The notes under the pieces were generated by a model. It saw nothing but the letters and a program-made list of their open reading frames with translations. It was not told where the DNA came from and did no database searches. A program made the translations under genes and the position numbers. From Lachnospiraceae bacterium (lineage in GTDB: Bacteria; Bacillota; Clostridia; Lachnospirales; Lachnospiraceae), in the NCBI GenBank assembly GCA_021203205.1, contig JAJQBQ010000053.1, positions 158,154 to 222,153 on the forward strand: 64,000 nucleotides of DNA, given 5' to 3'. Below, piece after piece: positions 21,805 through 27,398 of the stretch (the stretch's first letter is position 1; each line of letters opens with the position of its first letter).

Positions 21805-24633
21805 TTAATCTCCCACCTGTGTCTCCGTGATTTCTGTGAATTCACCGCCTAAAATGTCATCCAGCGTAATCAGTCCGTAGTAATACTGAAGAACCTTCGA
21901 ACTCAGTTCCGCCGCATAAGAGGAACCGCCGGCAAAAAGCATGACGACGCTGGTGACGATCTCGGGATCCTCATACGGCGACATGGTGACAAAAATGGAG
22001 TGGTTCGAGCGCAGCTTGTTTTCCTGCGCGGTACCGGATTTTCCGGCAACTTTAATTCCTGCACTCTCAAGCTCCGAAAAAATGGATTTTACGGAGCCGT
22101 TCGAAATAACCAGACGCATGCCGGTTGTCACCGCTTCCCAGGTGGAATCCTGCAGATTTACCACATTGGAAAGTTCGCTTTCATAATCCTCCGCGTTTTC
22201 GCCGTCCGAATCCTCCACATGGTCGATCAGCGTCAGTTCGTAATTGTATCCGCCGTTCGCAATCGTCATGACGTAACGGTTGATCTGAACGTTGGAGTAG
22301 CTGTGCGAACCCTGACCGATGGCCGAGCGGACAATATCATCGGTGGAGAAAATCGGTTCGTTTTCATCAATCTCGATGCCGGTTTTCGAAGTCAGCCCGA
22401 ACTGCGAGGCGTACTTCTCCAGCGTTGCCAGTCCGGCTTCGTCGCTGTAGGTACCGCCTGCGGTTCCCAGCCAGTAGCCCACCTGGTAGAAGAAATAGTT
22501 GCAGGATACGCGCAGAGCATTTGATACGTTGATAGCCCCGTGTCCGCCGGGGTACACCCAGCACTTCGGTGAAGGTGTGACCAGAGTAAAGATGCCCCGG
22601 TCCGTGATGGTAGTGGTCGGTGTAATAATCCCCTCTTCCAACGCCGTGATGGCAGTCATCATCTTAAAAGTAGAACCCGGTGCGGTTCTGGTCTGAGTCG
22701 CCCGGTTATAAAGCGGAGATGCCTGATCGTTCAGAAGCTGATTCCAGTAATCCGAGTCGATCGTCCCCGAAAGGTAATTGTTATCGTAACTCGGATAGGT
22801 TACACAGGCCAGCACATCGCCGGTATCCGGATCAGTGACAACAACGGAGCCGGAACATGGGTCTAAAGCAAGCTGCCCCGGCGTTATTTCCAGACTGGAA
22901 ATCTTATCAATGATAAAGTTGTACACCGTCTCTGCGCTTCCGGACAGGATGGTGGCTTCCGTGGCGGCATCTTCTTCCAGAATTCCCTGATTGTAGAGAA
23001 GCATGCAAACCTGAGAAGGTGTGATCTGCCCGCCGTAAATCAGCTGCTCATAGATCAGCTTCGCAAAGGTCGTATTATCATCGATATGTTCAAATATATA
23101 TGCGACAATCGCGTCAAATATGACAGAAGATTCCGTATAATCATCCGTAATTCCCAAATTGGACAGGGAAACAGCGTTCTGCGAGATGCAGTAGGTCAGC
23201 CACTCGGACACGGAAATCGTGCCGTTGTTCCAGGCTGTCTTCGTTGTATCCGAGGAGGAGATCAGGGAATCATCAATAATTCCCCAGGTGTCCGTGAGCA
23301 TATCATAACAGGATTCAATATATTCCTGCCGCTCGTCCGACCAGGAGTTCAACGGCGTATCGTTGTCCGCGGAGAACGCGAGCTCAAGAAAACTGATCGC
23401 CTCCGCCTCGTACTCGGAATAAATACGGTAGACGTTTTTCTCGTTTTCGGTCGCATCCTCCCGGTTCAGAATCGTGATATCCACGATATTATTGTTGATC
23501 AACTGGAAGTAAACCTGCTTTACCGGAATGTCCAGACTGTCCTCCTCCAGAGCGTCCGGTTCTGTCAGCACAATCTTCGAGACCAGAATGCCCGCCAGCT
23601 CCTGCTCCAGGAGGTTATAGCAGGCGATCTGCAGATCTATGTCGATCGTGAGGTAAACATCCTGCCCTGCTTCGGCCTCAACAGTATCCAGCACCTCGAG
23701 TATTTTTCCGGTGCTGTTCACGGAAACGGTCGTCGTGCCTTTCGTCCCCTGCAGCGTTGTTTCCATGTAGGATTCAATCCCCGATTTGCCGACGACATCA
23801 GAGCTGTTGTAGTCCAGTCCGGCTTCCGTATATTCCTCGAGCTGGGATTCCGAGATCGTACCGGTATAGCCCAGAATATGTGACACATATTTTCCGTAAT
23901 AGTAAACACGTGTCGATTTCACTTCCACGGATACCCCGGCGAGATCTGCCTCATGTTCATAAATTGCCGCCACGCTTTCATCGCTGATGTTTGTCGCCAC
24001 CGTAACAGATTTGTATTTCTGATACAGAATGGCGGATAGCTCGATGCGGATATAAATAATATCCAATGCATCCTCAATGGAATACTCGTCCGAAATGCTG
24101 TATTTCGAGCAAAGATATTCATAGGTTTCTTCCGCCGTGTTCAGCGAATAGTCCGTGCCGTCTTCGGTTACCAGATCGGTAAGTCCATAGATATCCTTCA
24201 GGAAACGGATTCTGGCACTCTCGGATGATGTTGTATAGACAAATTCTCCGTCTTCATAGCCGATGGAAGTACTCCCGGCAAGCTCATCGCCATTTTCTTT
24301 CAGGATCGTGACCAGGTTGTAAATGATCTCGTTCAGAAGCGCACTCTTGTTCGTCGAGGAATCGAGCGTGTCCATGATCGTGACCGAATAGGAAAGCTCG
24401 TTTCCGGCAAGCAGTGTGCCGTTGCGGTCGTAAATCTGTCCCCGTGTGCCTGAGGTTACGATTTCCTTTTCCGTCTGCTCCAGATAAGTATTGACATATT
24501 CTTCACTGTTTACGATCTGAAGATTGAACAGGCGAACGACAATTACCCCAAACACTGCCGCGACAAGGATCACCATGTAAAAAACACGGGATTGAAGAAC
24601 CTGTCGGATGGATTCAAAAATATAAGATATCAA
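21805..24633 (-). CDS. mrdA: Penicillin-binding protein 2 (class B transpeptidase), enlarged
   Basis: A 942-residue elongasome transpeptidase. One membrane helix (about 18-40), a pedestal domain with the TRGQIYDRNG motif, and a transpeptidase domain with Ser654 in GSTFK, Ser710 in SCN and Lys865 in KSGTAQ. Between the start of the transpeptidase domain (TIDIDLQIACYNLL, ~330) and SVVVTDPDTGDVL (~598) there is an extra ~230-residue acidic helical region, making it about half again as long as E. coli PBP2. The start is TTG 24633, with AGGAGG seven bases upstream; no ATG fits. Confidence 0.93.
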   Translation of the reverse strand: MISYIFESIRQVLQSRVFYMVILVAAVFGVIVVRLFNLQIVNSEEYVNTYLEQTEKEIVTSGTRGQIYDRNGTLLAGNELSYSVTIMDTLDSSTNKSALLNEIIYNLVTILKENGDELAGSTSIGYEDGEFVYTTSSESARIRFLKDIYGLTDLVTEDGTDYSLNTAEETYEYLCSKYSISDEYSIEDALDIIYIRIELSAILYQKYKSVTVATNISDESVAAIYEHEADLAGVSVEVKSTRVYYYGKYVSHILGYTGTISESQLEEYTEAGLDYNSSDVVGKSGIESYMETTLQGTKGTTTVSVNSTGKILEVLDTVEAEAGQDVYLTIDIDLQIACYNLLEQELAGILVSKIVLTEPDALEEDSLDIPVKQVYFQLINNNIVDITILNREDATENEKNVYRIYSEYEAEAISFLELAFSADNDTPLNSWSDERQEYIESCYDMLTDTWGIIDDSLISSSDTTKTAWNNGTISVSEWLTYCISQNAVSLSNLGITDDYTESSVIFDAIVAYIFEHIDDNTTFAKLIYEQLIYGGQITPSQVCMLLYNQGILEEDAATEATILSGSAETVYNFIIDKISSLEITPGQLALDPCSGSVVVTDPDTGDVLACVTYPSYDNNYLSGTIDSDYWNQLLNDQASPLYNRATQTRTAPGSTFKMMTAITALEEGIITPTTTITDRGIFTLVTPSPKCWVYPGGHGAINVSNALRVSCNYFFYQVGYWLGTAGGTYSDEAGLATLEKYASQFGLTSKTGIEIDENEPIFSTDDIVRSAIGQGSHSYSNVQINRYVMTIANGGYNYELTLIDHVEDSDGENAEDYESELSNVVNLQDSTWEAVTTGMRLVISNGSVKSIFSELESAGIKVAGKSGTAQENKLRSNHSIFVTMSPYEDPEIVTSVVMLFAGGSSYAAELSSKVLQYYYGLITLDDILGGEFTEITETQVGD

Positions 24634-24678: not shown

Positions 24679-25278
24679 TTATGACGCATCTGAACCGATC
24701 ATTGTATCGCTGATCAGTTCCTTTTTCTCCCTCTTCAGCTTGCGGTGTAATGTGTAGAACAGCGGGTAACAGATGAGAGTCAGAGCCATTGTCAGCACTG
24801 TCTCGGGCAGGATCACTGTCTTCATATAATAAAGAAGGTTCAGCTTTCCGTTCAGCAGAAAATAGAAAATATAGAACAGAAAATTATAGAGAAAATCCCC
24901 GACACCGACCGTCAGAAACACGCTGAGCACATGTCCTTCGTAAATATATTCCTTCATAAAGCCGCATACCCAGGCCAGACATACAAACATCGCCGCGTGC
25001 ACGCCCGGGGCAATCCCCATGGAAACATCCAGGAGGAGTCCCGTGAAAAAACCCAGAATCATGCCGCAGTTTTTTCCGGCAAGAAAACCGACAAAGACAA
25101 CCAGCATCAGCAGGAAATTTGGCGTAACGGAAAAACCGCGAAAAATTTCCTGCCACTGAGTTTCAAATAAGAACAGAGCGATCGCCAGCAGGACTGTAAG
25201 TATTTTTTTATAGCCTGCCAAAGCAAGCTTTTTGAAAAAATCGACAACTTTCAATCTCGTCTTCGGGCCTCCTGTCAC
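24679..25278 (-). CDS. mreD: Rod shape-determining membrane protein MreD
   Basis: A 199-residue protein with five to six membrane segments (LLAIALFLFETQWQEIF, LLMLVVFVGFLAGKNCGM, GFFTGLLLDVSMG, AMFVCLAWVCGFM, FLTVGVGDFLYNFLFYIFYFLL). GLLLDxxxG is the MreD signature. It links cytoplasmic MreB to the elongation enzymes. No ATG start exists; GTG 25278 is given, but TTG 25254 lies 13 bases after an AGGAGG and is a real alternative. Position between mreC and mrdA confirms it. Confidence 0.88.
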   Translation of the reverse strand: MTGGPKTRLKVVDFFKKLALAGYKKILTVLLAIALFLFETQWQEIFRGFSVTPNFLLMLVVFVGFLAGKNCGMILGFFTGLLLDVSMGIAPGVHAAMFVCLAWVCGFMKEYIYEGHVLSVFLTVGVGDFLYNFLFYIFYFLLNGKLNLLYYMKTVILPETVLTMALTLICYPLFYTLHRKLKREKKELISDTMIGSDAS

Positions 25279-25331: not shown

Positions 25332-26201
25332 TTAATCTTCCAGATTTTCCGTGTAATCTTCTTTCAGTGTCGTGATCACCAGAACTTCGGAAAGCTGTGA
25401 AAAATCCACCGCCAGAGTGACCTTTCCTGACTGCGTCAGATTGTTTTTATCTGCGGAGAGATCGCTGACATAGCCTACAAGCAGACCGGGCAGGAACTCG
25501 GAGCTGATGTTTGACGTGATTACCGCGGCACCCTCACTGACACTGACATCAATGGAAAGCTCTGTCAGCTCCAGAAAACCGTCTTCATATGCCGTGAGAC
25601 TGCCGGCCAGGACGCAGAGACTGTTGCTCTCCGAGACGACGACACTTACATTGCTCTCATCATCAATGATGGATCGGACTACCGCATAATGTTCGCCGCA
25701 GTCAGAAACAATTCCCACCAGCCCGCCGTCGGCGATGACATTCATTCCCGTTTCAACGCCGTCCGCAGTCCCTTTGTCGATCGTAAACTGGGAAAACCAG
25801 TTTCCTGAGGTTTTGCCGATCACGGTTGCCGCTATTTTATCATACTGTTCATAACTGTAATCAACGTCATACAGACCTTTCAGACGGTCCAGCTCATCAA
25901 GTTCGGTGGCAACGGAGCGGTTCCATTCTTCCAATTCTTCCACCTGCGCCCGCAGGGACTCATTCTCCGCCTGAAGTTCTTCTATGGTGTCGGAGTCTTC
26001 CAGCCAGCCTGCGATGGCGCTTCCCGCCGCATTGGTCCCCTTTTGCAGAGGAATGATCACCTTCGAATATACACTTCGAAAAGGTTCTGCGATGTCTTCG
26101 TAGAAGAAGCCCGTCACAATCAGTGCGGCGCACAGAAACAGCAGAACTGCCAGAACATATTTTGATTTCACTTGAAATTTCTTTCGGGTTGAGTTAGCCA
26201 A
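25332..26201 (-). CDS. mreC: Rod shape-determining protein MreC
   Basis: A 289-residue bitopic protein. A membrane segment (about 16-32), a coiled coil (about 72-105, DTIEELQAENESLRAQVEEL) and a beta-rich extracytoplasmic domain with VIGKTSGNWFSQFTIDKGTADGV and GLVGIV motifs. It organises PBP2/RodA along the wall. The start is TTG 26201 with AGAGGAAG ten bases before. It is separated from mreB by the MITE-like palindrome at 26223-26384. Confidence 0.93.
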   Translation of the reverse strand: MANSTRKKFQVKSKYVLAVLLFLCAALIVTGFFYEDIAEPFRSVYSKVIIPLQKGTNAAGSAIAGWLEDSDTIEELQAENESLRAQVEELEEWNRSVATELDELDRLKGLYDVDYSYEQYDKIAATVIGKTSGNWFSQFTIDKGTADGVETGMNVIADGGLVGIVSDCGEHYAVVRSIIDDESNVSVVVSESNSLCVLAGSLTAYEDGFLELTELSIDVSVSEGAAVITSNISSEFLPGLLVGYVSDLSADKNNLTQSGKVTLAVDFSQLSEVLVITTLKEDYTENLED

Positions 26202-26222: not shown

Positions 26223-26384
26223 TTAGGAGCTGTTAAGAAATAACATGTGCAGATTGTGCCGAATAATGTGTGAAGCACAGGTTATAAAAACGTAGCCGTA
26301 GCGGGCTACGGCGAGGCTTTTATGGCCTGTGATTCGCGCATTAGGCGGTGCAAGATGCATAAGGTATTTCTTAACAGATCCTTA
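26223..26384. mobile_element. MITE-like ~160-bp imperfect palindrome
   Basis: Terminal inverted repeats (about 26223-26242 and 26365-26384) share CTGTTAAGAAATA with one indel and one mismatch. Inward the arms keep pairing: GTGCC/GGC-GTGC, CACAGG/CCTGTG, ATAAAA/TTTTAT and a central CCGTAGC-GG-GCTACGG. The whole block could form one long cruciform. One end supplies the TAA stop of mreB. No ORF lies inside. It could alternatively be an oversized attenuator. Confidence 0.6.
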
Positions 26385-27398
26385 ATATGTCTTTTCATAT
26401 GGCACGTACATAAGTTCGCGGCGAAGTTTCACGTTCGCAAGAATCGCAGCAATGCCGCGGATTACCGTGCCGGTCGGCTCGTTTGCCACGTTTACCTTGA
26501 CATTCAGCGCACGGGCAAAATAATTCCCCAGATTCAGAAGTTCGGCGCTTCCGCCCGTGATGTAGACACCGTTTTTTACGATATCCTCACTCATCTCGGC
26601 GGGAATCTTGTCAAGAATCAGCCGGATTTGCTCCGCAATGGAGTACAGTACCTCCGAGATGGGCTCATACAAAAACGCAGAATCCAGTGTTTTGGAATCC
26701 GGAAGTCCTGTGATGGTGCTTCTCCCGTAAATCTGAAGGGAGCGGCCGGCTGTTCCGGCCGCATCCCCGACAGCAATCTTTAACTGTTCGGCTGTTTTTT
26801 CTCCGATCACAAGATTTTCTTTCTTGCGCACGGCATTTTTGATATTTTCGTTGATCTGCTTTCCGCCGATCAGAAGAAGTCTCGAATCGACGATACCGCC
26901 GGAAGCAATCATGGTGACTTCCGTCTGTGCGGCACCGATATTGACAATCAGACTCCCGCCGGGCGAGAGAATGTCAATTCCGATTCCCACCGCATCCGCC
27001 AGCGGCCGATCCACCAGAAAAATTTCCCTGGCATGAATACCAGCGTCTGCAATCATGTCGAGAATGGCACGCTTTGAGACCTCCGTGATGTCCATGGGAA
27101 TGGCGACACAAAACTTTGTTCCTTTAAAGACACGCCACTTTGCGGCTTTATGATACACACAGTAAAAAAGCATCTCCATGTGTTCGATCTGCGAAATCAC
27201 ACCGCGGAAAATCGGAGTATATACTTTGATATCTTCCGGCGCTTTCCCGTAGATTTCCCATGCTTCATCGCCAAACGCAATAATCTCATCGCGGCCCCGC
27301 AGAGCGATCATGGATTTTTCCGTATGAAACTGATTCGTGCTGCGCTCATAGAACTTCAGGCTGTCTGTCCCGAGATCTACGCCGAACATTCTTGCCAT
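26382..27398 (-). CDS. mreB: Actin-like rod shape protein MreB family
   Basis: A 338-residue actin-like ATPase that guides wall synthesis. Phosphate-1 GVDLGTDSLK, connect and phosphate-2 (LIVNIGAAQTEVTMIASGG), adenosine motif (VYITGGSAELLNL) and a C-terminal GTVIRGIAAIL are visible. It is diverged from canonical MreB, where DLGTANT and DIGGGTT are seen, so it may be an Mbl-like paralogue. TAGGAG precedes the ATG. Its stop codon is part of the palindromic element, implying that the element joined the end of the gene. Confidence 0.9.
   Translation of the reverse strand: MARMFGVDLGTDSLKFYERSTNQFHTEKSMIALRGRDEIIAFGDEAWEIYGKAPEDIKVYTPIFRGVISQIEHMEMLFYCVYHKAAKWRVFKGTKFCVAIPMDITEVSKRAILDMIADAGIHAREIFLVDRPLADAVGIGIDILSPGGSLIVNIGAAQTEVTMIASGGIVDSRLLLIGGKQINENIKNAVRKKENLVIGEKTAEQLKIAVGDAAGTAGRSLQIYGRSTITGLPDSKTLDSAFLYEPISEVLYSIAEQIRLILDKIPAEMSEDIVKNGVYITGGSAELLNLGNYFARALNVKVNVANEPTGTVIRGIAAILANVKLRRELMYVPYEKTY

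Follow-up and report, generated by a model that had tools for sequence, protein, structure and literature searches.

A MITE between mreB and mreC of a Lachnospiraceae bacterium and the strand asymmetry of its hairpin family

In a Lachnospiraceae bacterium, the mreB-like gene is separated from mreC by a palindrome that begins exactly where mreB ends, which raises the question of how such a sequence came to lie within the operon and whether it serves the genes around it. The original prediction, made from the letters of the window (the whole 64,000-nt stretch of DNA that was analysed), described a MITE-like block that supplies the stop codon of mreB, splits mreB from mreC and may have been domesticated as an attenuator. 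The features of the locus are as follows, with the basis of each assignment in brackets.

21805–24633, - strand: PBP2-like ORF, intact (named from its translation alone)
24679–25278, - strand: mreD, intact (ORF list and family match)
25332–26201, - strand: mreC, intact, with a TTG start (ORF list and family match)
26223–26225, no strand assigned: TTA, copy of the target duplication (TSD) on the mreC side (sequence)
26226–26381, + strand: MITE of class B, 156 bp, + denoting the best-folding strand (inverted repeat, copies, TSD, profile and fold)
26226–26242, + strand: terminal inverted repeat (TIR) GGAGCTGTTAAGAAATA (sequence and TIR search)
26289–26321, + strand: central hairpin core, common to MITEs of other genera (G000:C21:184442-184474, 0 mismatches)
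26295–26312, - strand: terminator-like hairpin, followed by TACGTTTTTA in the mre direction (consensus match)
26310–26291, - strand: second, overlapping terminator-like hairpin, directly followed by TTTTT (consensus match)
26365–26381, - strand: TIR GGATCTGTTAAGAAATA (sequence and TIR search)
26382–26384, no strand assigned: TTA, TSD copy on the mreB side (reads TAA on the - strand, the mreB stop codon)
26382–27398, - strand: mreB-like gene (MreB_Mbl), intact (ORF list and family match)

The palindromic block proved to be real and its predicted positions (26223–26384) exact, with the element itself lying between two TTA trinucleotides. It was called by the repeat finder as a single inverted repeat with 78-nt arms (26225–26302 and 26305–26382), which are 77% complementary and separated by a 2-nt spacer. 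The predicted folding energy reaches −89.3 kcal/mol on the + strand (z −12.75) and −65.2 kcal/mol on the - strand (z −10.19), neither of which was matched by any of 200 shuffles. The element has no coding capacity, the longest stop-free run inside it being 52 codons in any frame, and a 153-aa ORF that begins within it continues antisense across mreB. The mreB ORF ends with TAA on the - strand at 26382–26384 and the next ORF lies 180 nt beyond this stop, with the start of mreC (26201) 24 nt past the element. The putative TTG start of mreC is preceded by AGAGGAAG, and an ATG just 5' of it opens, as read from the sequence, a frame of four codons only. The terminal repeats, which had been described as reaching the end of mreB, are indeed present; the stop codon, however, is a copy of the TSD and lies outside the terminal repeat.

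Further copies of the element are found throughout the window's own genome (G000; 3.56 Mb, 61 contigs), in which a BLAST search with the element gave 24 matches at E ≤ 1 and an eight-copy sequence profile gave 36 at the same threshold, both strands counted. With the family profile, 15 distinct loci reached E ≤ 1e-3, the window copy included, and one of the BLAST matches, on contig C7, is 91% identical over 158 nt. TIR matches with up to three mismatches numbered 27, as against 0 for a reversed-pattern control. TAA or TTA flanks both sides of several genomic copies, and the copies on contigs C7 and C18, two of the closest, are without TAA/TTA on both sides. Two very short sequences with both ends (C35:32496–32557, 56 bp; C7:26903–26972, 64 bp) are likely to be internal deletions of the full element.

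The relatives carry no such insertion. MreB-like loci were taken from 30 of the 41 genomes searched, the window's own included, and the family profile matched none of the 29 loci of relatives, among them that of a genome of the same genus. The next long ORF begins −4 to 52 nt past the stop in 25 of these 29 loci, the next ORF being defined by its position and some loci possibly being MreB paralogues outside an mre operon; three others have a gap of 107–171 nt and in one no ORF was called. The gap after the stop of these MreB-like genes is usually short, compared with 180 nt in the window. In the nearest relative compared (G001, another species of the same genus, MreB 58% identical), the mreB product finishes in LMYVPYEKTY* and 11 nt separate its stop from the next ORF, without the element; the window mreB terminates in the same residues (EKTY*). 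Because the same-genus gene ends identically without the element, the native TAA is regarded as the insertion target that was subsequently duplicated, and the claim that the element supplies the mreB stop has to be abandoned. The MITE reading, by comparison, holds because other copies exist and the relatives' loci are empty, the reverse of the single copy present in all relatives that had been put forward as its refutation. At mreB–mreC, the block is short and non-coding, is bounded by TIRs and a TSD, has dispersed copies and corresponds to an empty site in relatives. It is therefore a non-autonomous mobile element, a MITE, and its family is a new addition to an established kind; no published description of this family was found in the literature searched, most subscription papers being outside that search.

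Of 200 genomes from the same taxonomic family, 14, including the window's own, contain the 33-nt core at up to two mismatches, as do at least 120 stretches of the GTDB collection. Among the 80 matches listed, 57 belong to Lachnospiraceae by title, 13 bear the names of genera or species (Blautia, Coprococcus, Butyrivibrio and others) that we take to be Lachnospiraceae, and 10 are labelled only as Clostridia, Clostridiaceae, Eubacterium sp., Eubacteriales or unnamed bacterium; Blautia wexlerae and Coprococcus catus are among the carriers. The 121 core matches (L140–L259) yielded 75 elements of 145–172 bp with both ends of one class, or 76 with the window copy, while the 46 excluded matches were truncated at the edge of a contig or locus, had no recognised end or fell outside this length range. 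Most of the elements (64/75) measure 154–158 bp, and the nearest to the window copy is L200 (83%). The core lies no more than about 100 bases from the end of several contigs (e.g. L142, L157, L159, L166, L194 and L198), and the family may account for some contig breaks.

The elements fall into two classes, with end sequences GGAACTGTNNNNAAATAAC and TAYANCG...AAATAAC: in class A, CTAG lies outside TAYANCG-like ends, and in class B, the type of the window copy, TWA lies outside GGANCTG-like ends. Target duplication is firmly established for class B, in which the left and right 3 nt are concordant in 27 of 29 elements versus 14.2 expected if independent. For class A it is uncertain, since flank concordance (31/46) is near the 29 expected and the duplication rests mainly on two copies, CAGG/CAGG and CTGG/CTGG. 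Of 397 genomes of the taxonomic family, 11 have exact class-B ends, with 39 exact TIR matches in the whole set; the 20 loci taken cover 21 of these matches and include three full-length elements with both ends read (L309, L314 and L316), L316 being flanked by TAA at one end and by TTA at the opposite end. These TIR-chosen copies differ from the core pattern at 4 (L316), 7 (L309) and more than 8 places (L314), partly as paired changes, and the notion of a near-invariant core was withdrawn; its constancy in the GTDB-collection set arises by construction, because those elements were picked by the core pattern. Short TIR-chosen copies without the core could not be oriented and so were not counted for the strand question, and the right end of L315 is a false call.

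Searches against Rfam gave no match at E ≤ 1 in the window between 25800 and 26800, and three matches, all under the gathering score, for four carrier loci. One of the three, to MIR447 (41.9 bits, cut-off 200, E 1.3e-5), coincides with a class-A element in L122, on the - strand, and is interpreted as an unspecific response to a long hairpin. Several unusual arrangements were also encountered. On a viral contig (L290, 6544–6648), class-B ends (TTA, GGAACTGTCAAGAAATAAC ... CAGTTCC, TTA) bound a short element whose interior is different. In a 5.9-kb IMG/VR contig (L260, 1–5938), the contig ends overlap by 76 identical bases within a class-A element and three tandem ORFs resemble, by eye, large serine recombinases; this contig may represent either a circular molecule or the DNA lying between two copies of the MITE. 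In L181 (1707–3424), two inverted class-A ends 1.7 kb apart surround a 485-aa ORF, Orn/Lys/Arg decarboxylase-like by eye, which is possibly a MITE-bounded unit.

Across the family, stop codons are not preferred over other eligible sites. A neighbour's stop codon falls exactly at the TSD for 15 of 196 element ends. In a comparison of 84 loci, with genes defined as ORFs of at least 100 codons and 13 elements inside such ORFs excluded from the fractions, 7/44 class-A elements were at stops versus 7/51 eligible CTAG sites outside genes, and 1/27 class-B elements versus 212/3691 eligible TWA sites outside genes. Special stop-codon targeting was rejected, as eligible non-genic sites of these loci coincide with stops equally often. 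A preference for TWA together with selection against gene breakage is sufficient to account for the placement, no additional preference being evident from the family counts.

No autonomous element with the ends of the family was found in a search that covered two transposase families in genomes that are mostly drafts in many contigs. DDE_Tnp_1 (E ≤ 1e-5) is missing in five of the nine carriers searched, the window's genome among them, DDE_Tnp_1_2 is present in just 2 of 14 carriers, and the window's genome matches neither. There was no oppositely oriented TIR pair 0.6–4 kb apart among the 39 exact matches in the 397 genomes, five pairs at this distance in one set of loci enclose no transposase-like ORF as judged by eye, and IMG/VR TIR scans gave 0 and 2 matches, none with matching ends and a transposase. 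Two carriers, G127 and G166, have DDE_Tnp_1 elements with CTAG duplications, which were discarded as partners because their ends (AGCGTGTTTGAAAAA and GGAAACACTGATTAA) do not match those of the MITE. The family has DDE-like ends and duplications, yet most carriers examined have no IS5-type transposase.

With regard to transcription, four terminator-like matches were obtained in a 1.4-kb stretch against 1.2 expected, two of the four inside the element and all of them weak consensus matches; partial attenuation via the two overlapping hairpins is possible as judged from the sequence. The - strand between mreB and mreC yielded no promoter-like call, and the window copy has one weak promoter-like match on the + strand (26240–26267, 9 of 12). 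Across the 76 copies no common element promoter emerged, with matches on the + strand in 13 (shuffles 8.8) and on the - strand in 20 (shuffles 10.0), and an own + strand promoter was dropped for lack of a clear excess. Of 69 elements examined for orientation, 47 have both neighbours within 250 bp, and these display no bias with respect to co-directional neighbours (18 against 15). Five core sequences folded both ways form a hairpin before a T-tract in both directions, which, together with the unbiased orientation, leaves a strong directional terminator unsupported.

An asymmetry was found between the strands of the element. Among 36 copies less than 85% alike, two-sided changes affect 35 of 49 consensus pairs. 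In a strand-symmetric arm alignment, core included, stem mismatches are G-T rather than A-C in a ratio of 190 to 91, with 30 of the 36 elements leaning to G-T and four to A-C; with RNAalifold pairs, which favour G-U, the counts outside the core are 158 vs 30 (class A, 127 vs 17; class B, 31 vs 13). On a tree of the 76 copies, with strand-symmetric pairing and 60 pairs outside the core, 95 changes away from a Watson–Crick pair led to G-T and 46 led to A-C (p 4.5e-5), although the copies share ancestry, so that such counts are not independent and p values are rough. The core-bearing (+) strand gives the more stable fold in 76/76 copies, in 6/6 further copies of the window's genome and in 3/3 full-length end-chosen copies, oriented by alignment. 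In the window copy, the shuffled + strand also folds better than the shuffled - strand (means −40.5 vs −29.4), since G-T mismatches enrich the + strand in G+T; base composition and pairing here express a single fact. In the mreB–mreC copy, the strand that folds better runs antisense to the mre operon.

These observations point to selection on one single strand of the family elements. Transposase binding or arm repair should ignore strand, and selection on a single-stranded form is therefore the most economical interpretation; the strand asymmetry is not expected from the binding of a transposase by itself. If the hairpin were instead kept only as transposase-binding ends, its arms equalised by repair and RNA uninvolved, the DDE-type TIRs and TSDs and the lack of a common promoter would fit, and arm-to-arm conversion could yield the two-sided changes; the excess of G-T over A-C is, however, at odds with a strand-blind process, as are the better fold of the + strand in every copy, ancestry being shared, and the same leaning in the three end-chosen copies, and this explanation is considered rather unlikely. 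It is also rather unlikely that one strand is the selected and active form of a Lachnospiraceae mobile family, as RNA or single-stranded DNA, in which a roughly 157-nt hairpin, containing internal mismatches and a small loop and maintained by compensatory changes, behaves as if it aided mobility or made a small RNA. Its many copies, two end types and strand asymmetry make the family suitable for asking whether selection acts on bacterial MITEs in the form of folded RNA.

For the locus itself, the probable history is that a class-B MITE was inserted by cut-and-paste-type transposition into the TAA stop of mreB, leaving mre ORFs that are intact and probably read through, in a family whose core-bearing strand would be under selection for single-strand (RNA-like) folding. 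Duplication of TTA/TAA upon insertion allowed mreB to keep its native end and displaced mreC by about 159 nt downstream, as shown by the TSD, the other copies and the relatives without the element. Because no promoter-like site is called on the - strand and only 24 nt separate the element from mreC, the mreC, mreD and PBP2-like ORFs are probably transcribed by read-through of the element. Downstream mRNA would then be somewhat less abundant, or be processed, owing to the long hairpin and the U-tract hairpins, for which we see roughly even chances. Domestication as an attenuator that sets the level of MreC, MreD and PBP2 relative to MreB is quite improbable: the TTTTT-tailed hairpins in the mre direction, the intact mreC and mreD and the absence of a called - strand promoter are consistent with it, whereas the empty loci of all 29 relatives, the unbiased orientation of the family, the lack of a stop-site preference and the antisense position of the better-folding strand argue against it. 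An ordinary host terminator or an immobile chance palindrome would account for the strong hairpin, whose core carries A- and T-tracts, but is already refuted by further copies with concordant TSDs and by relatives without the element, and retains practically no probability. Under the MITE history, the benefit of RNA-like folding of the core-bearing strand would probably be the element's own and not that of the mre operon, which is argued from the unbiased orientation relative to genes. A MITE can, accordingly, split a conserved cell-shape operon without gene damage, by landing on a stop codon that the duplication preserves.

Insertion sequences of the IS5 type target CTAG or TNA, and their TSD length and target resemble those of class A (CTAG) and class B (TWA). 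REP sequences are moved by RAYT and share with the mre-element family a hairpin with a strand that matters and a GTAG-like foot, here in the core; REPs are not known to have TSDs, whereas the mre element has one. Further parallels, compared by description, exist among short repeats of other bacteria. As described in PMC3049150, RUP and BOX of Streptococcus pneumoniae are short repeats with TIRs and a TSD whose transcripts fold with the TIRs paired, as the mre element would, and effects on co-transcribed genes are expected by its authors. Candidate partner insertion sequences (ISSpn2 and IS630-Spn1) are named there for RUP/BOX by TIR similarity, in contrast to the mre-element family, for which none was found; RUP/BOX are also over-represented between convergent genes, a position taken by 7/47 elements of the present family, a figure without background comparison. 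For the Correia/NEMIS elements of Neisseria, PMC2229807 proposes RNase III cleavage of their RNA stem-loops in the mRNAs of adjacent genes, and the long hairpin of the mre element could be processed as well; a 155-bp class of Correia/NEMIS elements is also described there, to which the mre element, at 156 bp, is similar in length.
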